A DNA stretch of 64,000 nt from Clostridiales bacterium (GTDB taxonomy: Bacteria; Bacillota; Clostridia; Christensenellales; UBA1242): assembly GCA_015055665.1 (NCBI GenBank), contig SVHX01000006.1, forward strand, positions 1 through 64,000, in the 5' to 3' direction. Under the pieces are notes generated by a model. It saw only the letters and a list, made by a program, of their open reading frames with translations. It was not told where the DNA came from and ran no database searches. Within the stretch, counting starts at the first letter, position 1. The number at the start of each line of letters is the position of its first letter. Shown in pieces: positions 2,961 through 59,824 of this stretch. A program made the position numbers and the translations under genes.

Positions 2961-3005
2961 GATGTCCTTACCAATGTAATGCGCTACCTACTGCGCCACG
3001 TTAGC
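2961..3005 (-). pseudogene. 5'-half fragment of tRNA-Thr
   Basis: Starting at 3005 and reading leftwards, the sequence matches the intact tRNA-Thr from the acceptor 5' strand through the D arm (the GGCGCAGTAGGTAGCGCA stretch) and the anticodon loop TTGGTAA, then diverges. No T arm or acceptor 3' strand follows. The flank TTTAATATGC directly upstream is also shared with the intact gene. Confidence 0.75.
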
Positions 3006-3010
3006 ATATT

Positions 3011-3040
3011 AAATTTTTGCAGACTTTTGCCCGTCTGCAA
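3011..3040 (-). terminator. Hairpin between the two tRNA-Thr fragments
   Basis: TTGCAGAC (3017-3024) pairs with GTCTGCAA (3033-3040). On the minus strand the stem is followed by an A/T-rich tract, so it looks like a leftover terminator. Confidence 0.4.
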
Positions 3041-3077
3041 GGGGCTATATATTTACACTTATTCGGTACTCTGCGGA

Positions 3078-3118
3078 GCCTTACCAAGGCGGTGCGCTAC
3101 CGACTGTGCCACATCAGC
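3078..3118 (-). pseudogene. Second, more diverged 5'-half fragment of tRNA-Thr
   Basis: From 3118 leftwards: GCTGATGTGGCACAGTCGGT, then AGCGCACCGCC and a TTGGTAA loop, again a threonine-type 5' half with anticodon GGT. The 3' half is missing. It is more diverged from the intact tRNA than the fragment at 2961-3005, which suggests it is older. Confidence 0.65.
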
Positions 3119-3184
3119 GTGTTGTGTGTTTCTTGAGGAGAAACGTGTTGTCTGGTAATGGGAAGCGGTTACAATTGATTTGAG

Positions 3185-4887: not shown

Positions 4888-5568
4888 ATGAACGAAAAAG
4901 TAAAGCAAATGGTGGAAGAGTACAAGGAGTATAGTAAGAAAGCTTTGCAGACATCTATAAACATAAGTAAAAAGCAGGAAGAGTTCGATAAAGAAATGTA
5001 TAAGCTAGAGAAACAACTCAAACAAGAGCAGGGTCGTGTTGATTACTTGAAAAGACAGCTAATATACGTTGGATTGGAAGAAGTAGTAGAGGAACTTAAG
5101 CATCATCCTTTTGTGCAAAATTTAGGTAAAATGCAAGTAAGTTGTTGGTTAAGGATGAGCTATGGCTCAAAGAGCTCTGGTCAAATAGTTTTATTGGAAG
5201 AGCAGTTAGAAAAAATAAAAAAATATTTGTTGGCTGAGGACTTTGATTTTGATTTAACAATTAGTTTTTCAGACACAAATAAAACTGTTAAAGTGGGCTT
5301 ATTTTCGTTTGCTCACACGATTCAAAAAGACGGTAAATCACTTGTTGAGCATGTTAAAATTCAGCCATTTGAGAATAGAAAAGAATATGGCTGGTATTGC
5401 ATTGATGATTATAGCCAAATAATCGTTCAACATCACCTAGGAGAGATATTTGGGGATAATACAAAAAGGGTTCCTAAAGTTTGGAGAGATTGTGTTCGAG
5501 CAGTACTAGAAAAAGAAAATACTAATAGTGATGAGCTTGATGCTACAAACACTGTTATGGGTGAGTAA
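4888..5568 (+). CDS. Array paralogue 1, unknown family
   Basis: 226 aa, no signal peptide or membrane segment. Residues 1-65 are a charged heptad-like helix (KKQEEFDKEMYKLEKQLKQE), likely coiled coil. Next come a VVEEL segment at the place of the family's VIDEIA motif, a beta-rich middle, the family signature IQKDGKSLVEHVKIQP near residue 150, then WYCIDDYSQII, a PKVWRDCVRAVLEKE helix and the tail NTVMGE. AGAGGAG lies 8 nt upstream of the ATG. It is the first gene after the shared-type promoter and 22 nt from the next copy. Function unknown; the family is defined only by comparing the copies in this window. Confidence 0.8.
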   Translation: MNEKVKQMVEEYKEYSKKALQTSINISKKQEEFDKEMYKLEKQLKQEQGRVDYLKRQLIYVGLEEVVEELKHHPFVQNLGKMQVSCWLRMSYGSKSSGQIVLLEEQLEKIKKYLLAEDFDFDLTISFSDTNKTVKVGLFSFAHTIQKDGKSLVEHVKIQPFENRKEYGWYCIDDYSQIIVQHHLGEIFGDNTKRVPKVWRDCVRAVLEKENTNSDELDATNTVMGE

Positions 5569-5590
5569 TATTTATTAGGGGTAAAAGATT

Positions 5591-6280
5591 ATGGATATTA
5601 GACGTGAAATTGCTGGATTGTATAGACGCGAGCAAGAAAATAGAGATATACATAAGTATCTTGCTGAGGCGAGGACTGAAGATGAACTCCGCAAGGCAAA
5701 AGATCATGCAGATTGGAACAAAATGGTCATTGCAATGGTAGGTGGTAGGCAGTGTCTATATACATTGGGGGAGATTCTTGATGAGATTGCTAACATTGTT
5801 GGTACAGATAGAGGAAATATAAGAGCGAGTATAACTATCGAGCCAAGTGGAGATAAGAGAAGGTCTTCTCGAGAATTGAATATTGATCTTGATTTGGTGA
5901 AAATTCTCGAAAAAATCAATGGGGATTATCCTCTGGGGGATATGGTAATAAGTCTATACTTAAATGGCAAAGAGTGGTTTAAGTTCGTACGACCATGTAG
6001 GCTAGGAGATGTCCAAAAAGATGGATCTTCCTTGGCAGATCATATTCGTGTTGAAGATAGCAAGAAAAAGTCTTACTATGGAGAGCCAATGGGCAAATAT
6101 GTGATTGATGATTGTAATAATGTAGTGATGAGCTATACAATACAAGAACTTGCACACGAAGAGCGTGCTAATAACTATGTTCCTGGCTATATTAAGCAAG
6201 CAATACTAAATATTAACGATAGGGAGTGTGGAAAGGTGGTAGATACTGCCGATTCTGCAAAAGAAATGGGAGATAATTAA
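5591..6280 (+). CDS. Array paralogue 2, unknown family
   Basis: 229 aa. The N-terminal helical part (LYRREQENRDIHKYLAEART) is the most diverged in the array and partly polar rather than a clean coiled coil. The family core is clear: ILDEIANIVG, a beta-rich region, VQKDGSSLADHIRVED, KYVIDDCNNVVM, QAILNINDRECGK, and the tail SAKEMGDN. AGGGG lies upstream of the ATG, 22 nt after the previous stop. The tail resembles TESAEEMGNN in the DUF378 protein at 34474-34926. Confidence 0.8.
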   Translation: MDIRREIAGLYRREQENRDIHKYLAEARTEDELRKAKDHADWNKMVIAMVGGRQCLYTLGEILDEIANIVGTDRGNIRASITIEPSGDKRRSSRELNIDLDLVKILEKINGDYPLGDMVISLYLNGKEWFKFVRPCRLGDVQKDGSSLADHIRVEDSKKKSYYGEPMGKYVIDDCNNVVMSYTIQELAHEERANNYVPGYIKQAILNINDRECGKVVDTADSAKEMGDN

Positions 6281-6301
6281 AATTTTTGGTGGAGGAAATT
6301 T

Positions 6302-6967
6302 ATGAAGAACTTTAAAGAATTTAAGCAAACTTATGCGGATAAGAAAAAAGCGGTGCAAGATGCTAATATTTTCTTGAGTCTAAAGGAACAGGAGTATCTT
6401 AGGGAAATTAGAGATGCAAAAGAGTTGGTTGATGCTTATGGCAAAGATCTCAAAAATATGGAGAATACCGTTTTTGAGGTAAAACTCGCAGATGTTATTG
6501 ATGAGATTGCTAAATTATGGAGAGAACAACCACCTGCTGTTACTGCTAAGATGTCTAGGGTGTTTGATACTCAAACATACGCTAGAATAACATTGGGGAA
6601 TGCACTAAGTGGTATTTGTAATTATAAGGATAAAATTATTGTTGATATTAAAGGCAAAGATTACAAGCACAAGATGCGAATTGAACAGCCTTTTAATCCA
6701 ACTGAGATTCAAGAGGATGGTCGTCCATTGTATCTGCATATGGAACTTAAAAAGGAAGAGATATTGAAACGTGCAGACGGAGATTGGGTGCCGACTTATC
6801 GTTATGTAATTGATGATTATAGTGTAATGACACTTAAATACAAGTACCATGCGTTATTGAACAATGATTTCGCCGGGATAGCCCCTATTCTTAAAGAGGC
6901 GATAATAAATGTTGTTGATAGAGAATATGGAAATTCCGAGTCGGAAGACGTAATGGGTGATGAATAA
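6302..6967 (+). CDS. Array paralogue 3, unknown family
   Basis: 221 aa. Helical N-terminus (KQTYADKKKAVQDANIFLSL, then ELVDAYGKDLKNMEN), then ADVIDEIAKLW, IQEDGRPLYLHMELKK, RYVIDDYSVMTLKY, EAIINVVDREYGN and the tail SESEDVMGDE. A GGTGGAGG ribosome binding site stands in front of the ATG. The last roughly 22 nt of coding sequence before the stop region are identical to those of paralogue 4, much more than the rest of the two genes, hinting at recent exchange or selection on the tail. Confidence 0.8.
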   Translation: MKNFKEFKQTYADKKKAVQDANIFLSLKEQEYLREIRDAKELVDAYGKDLKNMENTVFEVKLADVIDEIAKLWREQPPAVTAKMSRVFDTQTYARITLGNALSGICNYKDKIIVDIKGKDYKHKMRIEQPFNPTEIQEDGRPLYLHMELKKEEILKRADGDWVPTYRYVIDDYSVMTLKYKYHALLNNDFAGIAPILKEAIINVVDREYGNSESEDVMGDE

Positions 6968-6997
6968 GGATAAATTATTTTGGTGGAGAATAAAGTT

Positions 6998-7651
6998 ATG
7001 AGTAGTGTTGATTATAAAAGCTGGGCAGCTAAAATAGATAAACTTCAAGAACAAAACCGCGAAGCTGAGGAATTTATAAACGTCGAAAAACAAAAGTACT
7101 TAGAGTCTATAAAAAAGGCAAGTGATTTAATAGATTCTAATAGCAGAATAATAAGAGCTTTTGGTAATACAAAAATTCATGCTAATTTGGAAGATGTTAT
7201 AGATGAAATTGCAAAAAGATTACAGATAGCCAAAGATGATTTGAAGGTGAATCTAGATGTTCAAAGAGGCATGCGTAGCCTTGTTGGAGGTTATGAAGAT
7301 GTGCAAAGAGAACTTGATGCAATAAAAAGAGGCGATCTTTTTGGAATTATCAAAGTGTATATTTTTTCAGGAAAGCATTCTAAATTAATATTCGAATTGC
7401 CATTAAACTTTTATGATAGACAAAAAGATGGCCAAGGCTTAGATAAGCATATTGTTTTTGTTCCGACAGATCAATATCGATATAAAGTAGAGATAGACGA
7501 TTATCGTAATCTGACTATAGGATGTAGTGTCAAAGAACTTATGTCTTCTAGCCAAGGCGAGCGATATCCTTACATAGTTAAAGAAGCGTTTAAGGCTGTT
7601 AATGCAAGGGAATGTGAAGCCGAGTCGGAAGACGTAATGGGAGATAATTAA
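6998..7651 (+). CDS. Array paralogue 4, unknown family
   Basis: 217 aa from the ATG at 6998, chosen because GGTGGAG is 9 nt upstream; an in-frame TTG at 6980 would place that site inside the gene. Coiled-coil-like N-terminus (KIDKLQEQNREAEEFINVEK), EDVIDEIAKRL, then RQKDGQGLDKHIVFVP, VEIDDYRNLTIG, EAFKAVNARECEAES and the tail SEDVMGDN. Follows the family architecture closely. Confidence 0.8.
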   Translation: MSSVDYKSWAAKIDKLQEQNREAEEFINVEKQKYLESIKKASDLIDSNSRIIRAFGNTKIHANLEDVIDEIAKRLQIAKDDLKVNLDVQRGMRSLVGGYEDVQRELDAIKRGDLFGIIKVYIFSGKHSKLIFELPLNFYDRQKDGQGLDKHIVFVPTDQYRYKVEIDDYRNLTIGCSVKELMSSSQGERYPYIVKEAFKAVNARECEAESEDVMGDN

Positions 7652-7673
7652 AATACAAAAGGTGGAAAGTATT

Positions 7674-8348
7674 ATGGCACAAAGTTGGAAGGCGTTAAAA
7701 GGTGAATATGATGCAAGGTTAGAGTCGATAGGTAAGGCGAAGGTGTTCCTTGCGGAAAAGGAAAAACAATATGAAGCAGAAACTAAGCCAGCTAAAGACT
7801 TTATTAAAAGAGAAAATGTTGAGTTGAGTATATTGCGAAATCAAGAAATATCTATTAATGTAGCGGAAGTTATTGATGAACTTGCTAAGGTTGTAGGGGC
7901 TAGGGATAATGTGATTTTCGTAAAGACCGCAATAGCTGGTTCGCGTAGTTATTCTGGTACACGTGAGAACTTGCAAAATCAATTGTATGTTGACATGAAA
8001 AAGCGTGGGGCAAAAGGAGAGGTAATGTTAACTATCTCTGGTAAGGATAACGAATATTTTACTATTGAGTTTCCGATTGAGTTTTATGCTGTACAGAGGG
8101 ATGGCAGGCTTATGGGAGAGTGTATTGATATTGTTCCTAATAAGTTGATTAATTACAATCGTCCTTGGATGTTTGAGATGAATTGTGGTTTCGGAAATCT
8201 AGTTGTTAAGCATAAAATGTGTGAGTTACTAGGTAGTGGGTATCAAGGATATTGCAAGTATTATCCAGAGGCTTGGCGACAGGCGGTTGTAAATGTATTA
8301 GAAAGACAACACGAAAGCGCTCAAGAATCTGTTATGGGAGATGAGTAA
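7674..8348 (+). CDS. Array paralogue 5, unknown family
   Basis: 224 aa from the ATG at 7674 (AAGGTGGAAAG upstream; a GTG at 7662 overlaps that site). N-terminus SWKALKGEYDARLESIGKAK, AEVIDELAKVVG, a beta-rich core with GEVMLTISGKD, VQRDGRLMGECIDIVP, and the tail AQESVMGDE. With paralogues 6 and 7 it forms a subgroup: 5 and 6 share GEC(I/V)DI, 5 and 7 share YDAR near the start. The codons for its final MGDE also form the Shine-Dalgarno site of the next gene. Confidence 0.8.
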   Translation: MAQSWKALKGEYDARLESIGKAKVFLAEKEKQYEAETKPAKDFIKRENVELSILRNQEISINVAEVIDELAKVVGARDNVIFVKTAIAGSRSYSGTRENLQNQLYVDMKKRGAKGEVMLTISGKDNEYFTIEFPIEFYAVQRDGRLMGECIDIVPNKLINYNRPWMFEMNCGFGNLVVKHKMCELLGSGYQGYCKYYPEAWRQAVVNVLERQHESAQESVMGDE

Positions 8349-8852
8349 ATGCAAGAGGCTTGTGAGGTATTAGTAAGTGTTTCTGATGTTGTTGCTGAAA
8401 TAGCTAAAGAGATGAATTGTAATAAGTTAAATGTTAGTGTTAGAGTAGTTGGACCAGATTGCCTAGAGTCTGGAGAAAAACGACATCTTAAGGCTGGTCT
8501 AGAGTATATGTCTAAATCTGGTAAAATGGGAGAGATTATTCTAACCATATTAGATGGTGAAAGGTGTGTGTGCCCCAATATTAGATTGCCATTTAATTAT
8601 AATTTAATTCAGAAAGATGGAAGATGTCTAGGAGAGTGTGTTGACATAAAACCCATACCTGCTATTTGTGAACATATATCAGAAATAAAGCCAAAAGAGT
8701 GGCGATACTCGATAGCTTGTGAAAATCTAGTTGTTACTCAAAAAATAGAAGAATTGTTAGGTAATTATTACCCAAAAGTTTGGAGTAGGGCTGTTCGTGC
8801 AGTATTAAGGAATCAAAATAAAAACACTCAAGAAAGTATAATAGGTAGGTGA
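8349..8852 (+). CDS. Array paralogue 6, lacks the N-terminal helix
   Basis: 167 aa, about 55 shorter than its neighbours. It begins almost at the core motif (VSDVVAEIAKEMNC) and has no coiled coil. The core follows: GEIILTILDGE, IQKDGRCLGECVDIKP, YSIACENLVVTQKIEELLG, and the degenerate tail ESIIGR. The ATG begins immediately after the stop of paralogue 5, using GGAG inside that gene's last codons. Most similar to paralogue 5. It could be a truncated duplicate or a deliberate core-only partner; the frame is intact. Confidence 0.75.
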   Translation: MQEACEVLVSVSDVVAEIAKEMNCNKLNVSVRVVGPDCLESGEKRHLKAGLEYMSKSGKMGEIILTILDGERCVCPNIRLPFNYNLIQKDGRCLGECVDIKPIPAICEHISEIKPKEWRYSIACENLVVTQKIEELLGNYYPKVWSRAVRAVLRNQNKNTQESIIGR

Positions 8853-8857
8853 AGTAA

Positions 8858-9523
8858 ATGAGTGATAATTGGAAATCTGTAAAAGCTGAATATGATGCAA
8901 GACAAAGTAGAATATTAGAAGCTAAAGATGCCATAAAGAGTAGATATGAGATTTTTCTAGAAGAAACAAAAAAATATAATGAAGTAGTTGAAAATGAAAA
9001 AAAGGAATTAGACTCTCTAGGAAACGAGGTTGTTAGAGTAAATGTTGCTGAAGTAATACAAGAATTGGCTAATATTTGTGGCATAGAGAAGAAAGAATTA
9101 AAAGTGAAATTTTTAATAAGTGGATATAACCCAAACTTTGGTATTTACCATAATACACTTAAAGATTGTACCGCGGGAATGCAACAAATAAAGCGTGGTG
9201 GTGATTGTGGTTTTGTGTCGGTATATGTGCGTTGGGGAGAACGCACTTTATGCACTTCATCTTTCCCATTGAATGGAAATGATATTCAAAGCAATGGAAA
9301 AGAACTTAAGAAGAACGTAGTGATAAAAGAAGAGGACGATTCAACATATTCAATAGCTTTCAAAAATGAATCAATTGTTATTGCCAAACATGAGTTTGGT
9401 GCGATAATGGGGATAAGTGATCGTTTTAAGTGTTGCGTTTCGCGATCATGGTTTGATGCAGTACTCGGGGTGCTAGAGAAACAGAGTGAACACGCACAAG
9501 AAAATGTCATGGGAGATGAGTAA
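8858..9523 (+). CDS. Array paralogue 7, unknown family
   Basis: 221 aa. N-terminus NWKSVKAEYDARQSRILEAK resembles paralogue 5; a charged helix continues to about residue 55. AEVIQELANICG follows. The signature is altered to IQSNGKELKKNVVIKE, so the usual KDG/RDG pair is lost. TYSIAFKNESIVIAKHEFGA, AVLGVLEKQSEHAQ and the tail ENVMGDE complete it. The ribosome binding site (TAGGTAGGTGA) covers the end of paralogue 6. Core features are close to the distant copy at 60786. Confidence 0.8.
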   Translation: MSDNWKSVKAEYDARQSRILEAKDAIKSRYEIFLEETKKYNEVVENEKKELDSLGNEVVRVNVAEVIQELANICGIEKKELKVKFLISGYNPNFGIYHNTLKDCTAGMQQIKRGGDCGFVSVYVRWGERTLCTSSFPLNGNDIQSNGKELKKNVVIKEEDDSTYSIAFKNESIVIAKHEFGAIMGISDRFKCCVSRSWFDAVLGVLEKQSEHAQENVMGDE

Positions 9524-9534
9524 GGGAGAGAATT

Positions 9535-10173
9535 GTGGTTGAATTGAGTTTTAAAAGTATTGTGGAAGAGATAAATAATGCTGAAAAGCGCAAGCTGGAG
9601 GCATCAAAGTACATAATGGAGCAAGAGAGGGCTTATAAAGAAAGAACTGCAGAAGCTAGAAATGTGATTGCGAGTTCGTCTTCTCGTATTATGGATTTGA
9701 AATGTAAGATGTATAAATTTCATCTTGTAGACATTATTAAAGAGATGGAGAAGTTAAAAGGCGAAGATCTTAGTATTAGATGCGATATCGTTTTTGACGA
9801 GCCTCAGTATGGCACACAGAAGGATCTTTGTAATAAATTAACCGAGATGTATTGTGATGATGATCTAGTTAATATAGTTGTAGATATGTATGGATCTAAG
9901 GGGTGTGTAGGAGGGATGGAATTTGCTATGCCGCTAGACACAATTCAGAGAGATGGTAGCGAATTTGTAGAGCATATTAAGGTTAGGCGTGCGGGATGTG
10001 GTAAGGTATTTACATATCTTATTGAAGACTGGAGCCAGTTGACTATACCATTTACTGTATCTGAACTTACTAGTTCTAATATAGAGACTCCGATCCAAGA
10101 TGCAGACTTAAGACCAGCACTCTACAACTTAATGGATAGAGAAGCTTATTATGAAAATGATGATGTAATGTAG
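9535..10173 (+). CDS. Array paralogue 8, unknown family (last of the array)
   Basis: 212 aa with a GTG start at 9535; GGGAGAG lies just upstream. N-terminal helix (EEINNAEKRKLEASKYIMEQ), VDIIKEMEKLKG at the motif position, then IQRDGSEFVEHIKVRR, TYLIEDWSQLTIPFTVSELT, ALYNLMDREAYYEN and a tail cut to DDVM: the stop comes where the other copies continue GDE. A strong terminator follows at 10187-10258, closing the operon. Confidence 0.75.
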   Translation: MVELSFKSIVEEINNAEKRKLEASKYIMEQERAYKERTAEARNVIASSSSRIMDLKCKMYKFHLVDIIKEMEKLKGEDLSIRCDIVFDEPQYGTQKDLCNKLTEMYCDDDLVNIVVDMYGSKGCVGGMEFAMPLDTIQRDGSEFVEHIKVRRAGCGKVFTYLIEDWSQLTIPFTVSELTSSNIETPIQDADLRPALYNLMDREAYYENDDVM

Positions 10174-43856: not shown

Positions 43857-43875
43857 GCGGAGTTGGAGAGATTCG
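43857..43875 (-). repeat. Duplicate of the tRNA-Ser 3' end
   Basis: GCGGAGTTGGAGAGATTCG is identical to 43989-44007 inside tRNA-Ser (T-arm and acceptor 3' strand), 132 bp away in the same orientation. Looks like a former attachment-site duplication. Apart from this and the terminator, 43680-43986 shows no gene. Confidence 0.7.
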
Positions 43876-43944
43876 GAGCCGAGCGAAAGCGAACGCCCTC
43901 ATGCAGAGCATGAGTACACTGAAAGAGTGAGAATCTCGATATGA

Positions 43945-43978
43945 TAAAAAAATAGTAAAACGAAAAAATTCGTTTTAC
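43945..43978 (-). terminator. Terminator of tRNA-Ser
   Basis: On the minus strand GTAAAACGAA-TTTT-TTCGTTTTAC followed by TATTTTTTT. Confidence 0.75.
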
Positions 43979-43986
43979 ATATTGCT

Positions 43987-44077
43987 TGGCGGAGTTGGAG
44001 AGATTCGAACTCTCGTGCCGATTGCTCGACAAACGCATTTCGAGTGCGTCCCGGTACGACCACTTCGGTACAACTCC
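43987..44077 (-). tRNA. tRNA-Ser (anticodon CGA)
   Basis: A 91-nt type II tRNA with encoded CCA and the long variable arm expected for serine. Acceptor GGAGTTG pairs with CAACTCC; anticodon stem CGCA/TGCG around CTCGAAA, anticodon CGA; T arm GAGAG-TTCGAAT-CTCTC. Its 3' 19 nt are repeated at 43857-43875. Confidence 0.95.
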
Positions 44078-59430: not shown

Positions 59431-59578
59431 AATAATTTTTGAGCGAGAATGCTTGCATTTGTTAGCGAGAAATACAAGTTCAAGTCCTTTTCGTTGGAAA
59501 AGATGCCGTTGCTAACGGCATACAGATATCTGCACACACAAAAAAATTCGAACTGGTTGTTCGAATTAGTTTTTTGTA

Positions 59579-59599
59579 TGGTGCGGATAACTGGACTTG
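59579..59599 (-). repeat. Duplicate of the tRNA-Leu 3' end
   Basis: 21 bp identical to 59741-59761 at the 3' end of tRNA-Leu, 162 bp away and in the same orientation. A separate terminator-like hairpin (AATTCGAAC-loop-GTTCGAATT, about 59546-59568) follows it on the minus strand. The interval between the copies holds GAAAACAA/TTGTTTTC and GGCAGA/TCTGCC hairpins but no gene. Confidence 0.7.
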
Positions 59600-59713
59600 T
59601 CAATGTGGCGGAGCCATATTTGCCGAGCGTGTCTCGGCTACACAGCTGGTTCAAAGAAAACAAGCAATTGTTTTCTGGCAGATAAAATCTGCCGGTACAG
59701 TTATAAAGAAACA

Positions 59714-59740
59714 AAAACGACACTTTACGTGTCGTAATTT
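59714..59740 (-). terminator. Terminator of tRNA-Leu
   Basis: Minus strand ACGACAC-GTAAA-GTGTCGT then TTTTG, just after the CCA end. Confidence 0.7.
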
Positions 59741-59824
59741 TGGTGCGGATAACTGGACTTGAACCAGCACGGGTCGCCCCACAAACACCTCAAGCTTGCG
59801 CGTCTGCCATTCCGCCATATCCGC
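59741..59824 (-). tRNA. tRNA-Leu (anticodon GAG)
   Basis: 84-nt type II tRNA with encoded CCA. Acceptor GCGGATA/TATCCGC; anticodon stem CAAGC/GTTTG around loop TTGAGGT, anticodon GAG; long variable arm; T arm CTGG-TTCAAGT-CCAG. It lies between two outward-facing array-type promoters (59372-59430 and 59987-60040). Confidence 0.95.

Follow-up and report, generated by a model that had tools for sequence, protein, structure and literature searches.

The 3′ ends of tRNA genes are classical doors for mobile DNA, and tyrosine integrases that act at tRNA genes usually have the segment from the T-loop to the CCA as their attachment segment. To our knowledge, mobile DNA at tRNA 3′ ends always comes with an integrase and cargo. 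Here we analyse protein-free units of about 110–210 bp that lie directly behind tRNA genes of an uncultured, gut-type member of the Clostridia. The starting point was a window of 64,000 nucleotides (positions 1 to 64,000 of contig SVHX01000006.1, assembly GCA_015055665.1), which is part of a draft metagenome-assembled genome (MAG) of 1.26 Mb in 18 contigs, referred to as G000.

The units resemble tRNA-targeting integrative elements (prophages, ICEs, IMEs, tycheposons) in that the segment from the T-loop to the CCA is regenerated at one end, with a second copy at the other, and a direct repeat of the tRNA 3′ end flanks the insert. Unlike these elements they are gene-free and too short to hold an integrase of their own, they carry an antisense tRNA arm and a hairpin core, and one family occupies many different tRNAs. 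There is also a likeness to integrons. Like an attC site, a unit is an imperfect inverted repeat that might fold as a single strand, with two boxes around an unpaired or bulged centre, and like integron arrays the units occur in tandem and keep structure more than sequence; insertion at one fixed end would be a further likeness. In contrast to integrons, the units contain no cassette genes, no GTTRRRY core could be demonstrated, each bulge is an entire hairpin, the arms copy the host tRNA, and the fixed end is a tRNA gene. No integron integrase was found, and since this is the defining test, we do not class the units as an integron.

REP and REPIN elements are likewise short non-coding hairpins, and a GTA motif by the core hairpin of the units recalls the GTAG of REP. 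Unlike elements mobilised by RAYT (IS200/IS605 type), the units are tRNA-adjacent and carry host tRNA copies, and many carriers lack a Y1 transposase. With MITEs the units share the small size, the non-autonomous character, inverted repeats, and ends that carry a direct duplication; in the units, however, the inverted repeats are derived from the target, the duplication is 21 nt long, the site is fixed, and no parent transposon was found (pattern scans of viral contigs were negative). We could not assign the units to a described repeat family. No description of such units was found in the openly licensed full-text literature; an earlier description elsewhere is possible.

Results

The 3′ end of tRNA-Leu(GAG) is repeated at the end of a hairpin-rich unit

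An initial sequence-only reading of the window had noticed that the 3′ end of a tRNA-Leu is duplicated downstream together with a terminator-like hairpin, and that a tRNA-Ser is in the same situation. These observations hold. The copy matches the 3′ end of tRNA-Leu(GAG) at 21 of 21 positions with a start-to-start distance of 162 bp, and among 2000 shuffles of the 450 nt downstream of this tRNA the best match reached at most 16 of 21, so that the repeat is far beyond chance. Terminator-like hairpins are present behind both copies (Table 1). The 140 nt between the tRNA and the copy contain a partial reverse complement of that tRNA and four hairpins, and the unit folds with a z-score of about −4.8 on either strand. 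It is followed by a second, truncated unit, the core of which is 90% identical over 41 nt to the tRNA-Trp unit of the congener G002. At tRNA-Ser(CGA), 19 nt of the 3′ end are repeated. In a different part of the window (4888–10173), eight consecutive ORFs of about 170–230 aa on the plus strand look like tandem paralogues, most of them ending in a similar motif (VMGDE or VMGDN).

Table 1. Features of the two unit-bearing tRNA sites in the window. Positions refer to the window.
Feature	Position	Strand	Basis or remark
Host gene tRNA-Leu(GAG)	59741..59824	-	ARAGORN; RF00005
Tail 1: tRNA 3′ end, T-loop C56 to CCA, CAAGTCCAGTTATCCGCACCA	59741..59761	-	
Proximal terminator-like hairpin with T-run, contributed by the unit	59712..59735	-	sequence
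Antisense arm part 1, ATAACTG (reverse complement of tRNA CAGTTAT)	59698..59704	-	
Hairpin hp1, within the antisense T-loop	59677..59693	-	fold
Hairpin hp2, within the antisense T-loop	59655..59676	-	fold
Antisense arm part 2, TTGAACC (reverse complement of T-arm GGTTCAA)	59648..59654	-	
Core hairpin hp3, conserved, GTAGCCGAG...CTCGGC	59622..59641	-	covariation; model R1 match, E 3e-11
Core hairpin hp4, conserved, ATATGGC...GCCACAT, then TGAC	59603..59619	-	covariation
Tail 2: exact 21-nt copy of the tRNA-Leu(GAG) 3′ end	59579..59599	-	
Second terminator, 3′ of tail 2	59540..59567	-	weak similarity to the proximal terminator at the unit-free tRNA-Leu(gag) of G002
Second unit, truncated	59435..59535 (59435-59567 including terminator)	-	no third tail
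Second unit: antisense arm	59523-59535		
Second unit: hairpins	59502-59522, 59487-59502		
Second unit: anti-T-loop	59478-59486		
Second unit: core	59435-59477		
Host gene tRNA-Ser(CGA), second tRNA in the window with a unit	43987..44077	-	ARAGORN
Unit behind tRNA-Ser(CGA)	43857..43986	-	
tRNA-Ser(CGA) unit: terminator	43946-43978		
tRNA-Ser(CGA) unit: antisense arm	43925-43938		
tRNA-Ser(CGA) unit: hairpins	43876-43914		
tRNA-Ser(CGA) unit: tail copy, 19 nt	43857-43875		

Units recur at many tRNA genes and in related genomes

Each tRNA gene of G000 was compared with its own flanks. Units were found at at least 13 of about 32 tRNA genes, about half, and truncated units at two more (tRNA-Tyr and tRNA-Glu-ctc). 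Tail copies lie 3′ of Thr-cgt (two), Ile, Lys-ctt, Asn (two), Trp, Leu-taa (two), Leu-tag, Ser-cga and Leu-gag; Ser-tga, Gly-gcc, Arg-acg and fMet also have units. The copies normally span 19–21 nt, from T-loop position C56 to the CCA. In G000 and its relatives taken together, a copy of the tRNA's own tail with at least 17 of 21 matches was present in 36 of 261 distinct tRNA contexts, compared to 2 of 1332 when tails of other tRNAs were used. An antisense arm of at least 9 nt was seen at 16 of the 36 unit loci (7/175 in swapped comparisons) and, among contexts with no remaining tail copy, in 12 of 106 (9/519 swapped).

Congeners of G000 also carry units, as do two more genera in the family (G040 and G104) and at least one further family in the order (G007); G150 is a possible case. 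They are likewise present in named MAGs of uncultured Clostridia. The sampled tRNA loci of G006, G008 and G198 had none. Matches to model R1 in G000 were confined to tRNA-adjacent sites. Among 200 genomes of the order, this model found the core in G000 only, plus two weak matches, one at a locus with no tRNA (L136, in G051) and one inside a tRNA-Ile unit (L137, in G177). The core sequence is thus largely genus-specific, and the architecture extends to G040, G104 and G007. In a genome-wide pattern scan, three matches outside the Clostridia (L124, L125 and L127) had no nearby tRNA and were taken as chance.

Copies of tRNA 5′ parts were observed too. Upstream of tRNA-Thr(ggt) (2735–2810), copies of its 5′ half lie at 2964–3015 (88%) and 3077–3128 (67%), as a mirror of the 3′ units. 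On contig C3 of G000 (L021), tandem 79-bp units precede tRNA-Leu(caa), each containing 21 nt repeated from the tRNA 5′ end, a hairpin and a partial reverse complement of this repeat, i.e., a 5′ version of the same design.

The units have a conserved architecture and a covarying core

In the direction of the tRNA, the order within a unit is terminator, antisense arm, two hairpins, T-loop complement, turn, forward piece and tail copy. The antisense arm is complementary to the acceptor/T-stem strand of its own tRNA and is interrupted at the T-loop by the two hairpins, the sequence of which varies between most units; the T-loop complement reads CTCGAACC or similar. In some units, e.g., at tRNA-Ile, the arms reach the anticodon loop. 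The forward piece consists of GGTAYTCGGG..., hairpin hp3, CCCGA, hairpin hp4 and GAC, followed by the tail copy. Antisense arm and forward copy could pair into a stem of tRNA 3′ sequence from which hairpins protrude near the T-loop; this pairing is missing from the minimum-energy folds of some units. The core covaries, with 8 of 17 pairs changed on both sides, a value that none of 500 shuffles reached and that compares to 0–2 in slid controls. TTGAC in the core was considered as a promoter motif and rejected, as it is absent from other core classes.

Hairpin mismatches on the tRNA-sense strand were A.C in 12 cases and G.T in 2, and a single conserved position accounted for many of them. The opposite strand was the more stable one in 32 of 38 units, and its loops are purine-rich (e.g., GAA, AAA, GAAA). 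Because of these mismatches, the higher stability and the purine-rich loops, the strand opposite the tRNA is favoured as the folded form in this genus, which we regard as suggestive only. For tRNA-Ile units the preference is reversed, and in the genus of G040 the loops indicate the other strand. Behind tRNA-Ile of G003 (L096) lies a compound array in which short palindromic and long units alternate, all of them ending in the tRNA-Ile tail.

Comparison of congeners indicates insertion

The congener G002 (MAG RGIG3907) has a tRNA-Leu(gag) that is identical at 84 of 84 positions and carries no unit, and in G004 and G005 the same tRNA has units with different cores. Behind tRNA-Trp, a unit is present in G000 and G002 and absent from G004 and G005. 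G003 has no unit at tRNA-Asn, and its proximal terminator is matched by the one downstream of the G005 unit; likewise, the proximal terminator of G002 at this tRNA is matched by the one that follows the array in G000. At tRNA-Leu(gag), the terminator following the first unit of G000 resembles that of the empty site in G002 (p 0.005). Given these displaced terminators, a unit has been placed between the CCA and the old terminator, together with a terminator and a tail of its own. The comparisons argue strongly that the units are insertions.

Sequences adjacent to the tails fall into a few classes, one of which is common to Ile, Lys, Trp and fMet in G000. Alike cores were found in 8 of 119 pairs from different tRNAs of the same genome and in 0 of 35 pairs from the same tRNA in different genomes, and the core at tRNA-Thr-ggt of G009 is identical over 34 nt to that at tRNA-Thr-cgt of G000. 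Arms and tails match the local tRNA despite the cores that different tRNAs have in common. Tandem units occur, in which the tRNA-proximal unit tends to be the most complete and distal ones are often truncated, and distal tails are usually no better than proximal ones. The truncation of distal units would fit addition beside the tRNA.

Search for a mobilising enzyme or a parent element

No ORF was found within the units. The GTA motif prompted a RAYT/REP idea, which was rejected because the Y1 transposase (PF01797) does not track the units; it is absent from the unit-bearing genomes G001, G003, G004, G005 and G009. Retroelements (group II introns, retrons, DGRs) were dismissed as well, with reverse transcriptase (PF00078) in only 3 of 12 genomes and not in G000. 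The only tyrosine recombinase in each of the complete carriers G040 and G104 has an Xer-like length, and no second recombinase common to all carriers was seen. Since Xer is universal, its presence is evidence neither for nor against a role. Neither core pattern scans of viral contigs nor blastn searches against phages and plasmids yielded units; two matches in human-gut phages proved on inspection to be tRNA-Leu matches that lack tail copies, and a phage or plasmid origin was set aside. A known structured RNA was rejected too, Rfam matches above the gathering score being tRNA only.

Two other loci of tRNA-associated DNA were noted. At L017, a 1-kb segment (1578–2625) with an ORF of 247 aa (1618–2361) is bounded by tRNA-Arg(tcg) on one side and by a 30-nt repeat of this tRNA's 3′ end on the other; it has no hairpins of the unit type and is perhaps a separate small integrated element. 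On contig C4 of G000 (L033), a fragment of a phage-type integrase ends a few hundred bases from the unit-free tRNA-Ser(gct).

Discussion

Our data favour, with somewhat better than even confidence, a family of non-coding, non-autonomous insertions directly behind tRNA genes that act as folded single strands. The sequence-only reading had suggested a common mechanism for the two sites in the window, for instance a small integrating element family, and had pointed to a scan of the genome's tRNA genes and to insertion polymorphism as checks. The many further unit-bearing tRNA genes, the presence or absence of units at identical tRNAs between congeners and the ancestral terminators displaced behind units all support that suggestion.

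It had also considered minimal remnants of such elements. An element family is in line with our results; remnants of ordinary integrase elements fit less well, because the intervening DNA has its own conserved architecture. The corresponding explanation, scars of conventional prophages, ICEs or IMEs of which the bulk was deleted between attL and attR, would account for tail copies that run from the T-loop to the CCA like the usual attachment segment. We hold it to be very unlikely: the spacer is conserved in architecture and size at dozens of loci, the complete carriers G040 and G104 have no integrase beyond Xer, and viral contigs, phages and plasmids gave no match other than tRNA-like ones. 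The draft state of G000 and the Ns in one fMet array could raise the suspicion of chance or an assembly artefact, which can practically be dismissed in view of the shuffling result and of identical architecture in independent MAGs from different studies. A structured regulatory RNA, selected for control of the tRNA either as an antisense RNA or as a read-through switch based on competition for pairing between tail, antisense arm and tail copy, would agree with the covarying core, the strong folding (z about −4.8) and, on one strand, purine loops of GNRA-like type and mismatches that wobble pairing could accommodate. Such a function is quite unlikely when a congener with an identical tRNA lacks the unit, truncation and tandem duplication are frequent, a terminator lies between tRNA and unit, the preference for the folded strand is not uniform, and no Rfam family matches.

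Template switching during replication or repair would need no mobile element. The strand would fold back at the terminator hairpin, the tRNA would be copied backward and, after another switch, forward, and the resulting triplets of tRNA, antisense and sense copy would expand by slippage. This would readily explain why both arms match the local tRNA, as well as the near-identical tandem copies (e.g., at tRNA-Gly of G002) and the similar pattern at 5′ tRNA ends, and it would need host proteins only, which are the ones available. It is at odds with the occurrence of the same core class at different tRNAs and in different species and of different cores at the same tRNA, with the fixed start at T-loop C56 and the conserved covarying hp3/hp4 core, and with the new terminator that a unit brings; on balance we consider it rather unlikely. 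Some observations are also difficult for an insertion family. Simple recombination does not explain arms that match each new tRNA, the strand that would fold differs for tRNA-Ile units and in the genus of G040, the 5′-end copies before tRNA-Leu(caa) may mean that the process is not specific for the T-loop, and no candidate mobilising enzyme emerged among Y1 transposase, reverse transcriptase and a second tyrosine recombinase.

If the units are inserted elements, as we favour, insertion would take place at the tRNA-proximal end (T-loop/CCA), and older units would shift outward and decay. The 21-nt tail would be the attachment or target-duplication sequence. In the folded single strand, the antisense arm would pair with the forward copy and rebuild a double-stranded tRNA 3′ end with flanking bulged hairpins, which may work like an integron attC site. 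The enzyme would act in trans and could be the resident Xer-type recombinase or one from an unseen helper element. Arms that match each tRNA could arise by copying during insertion, by later conversion by the tRNA gene, or by repeated fold-back synthesis. A more specific version, tentative and in our opinion improbable though worth stating, is a protein-free integron-like system with tRNAs as docking sites and hairpin cassettes with target-copied arms, the folded single strands of which would be captured by the resident Xer to build ordered arrays.

Conclusions

In this reduced genome, a gene-free structure occupies the 3′ side of nearly half the tRNA genes. The units carry a forward and a backward copy of their target, and their architecture is kept while sequence and host tRNA change. 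They would represent either a new class of target-copying mobile DNA or the product of a mutational process that creates hairpins 3′ of tRNA genes. In both cases, the use of attachment-site repeats beside tRNAs as markers of genomic islands would be affected.
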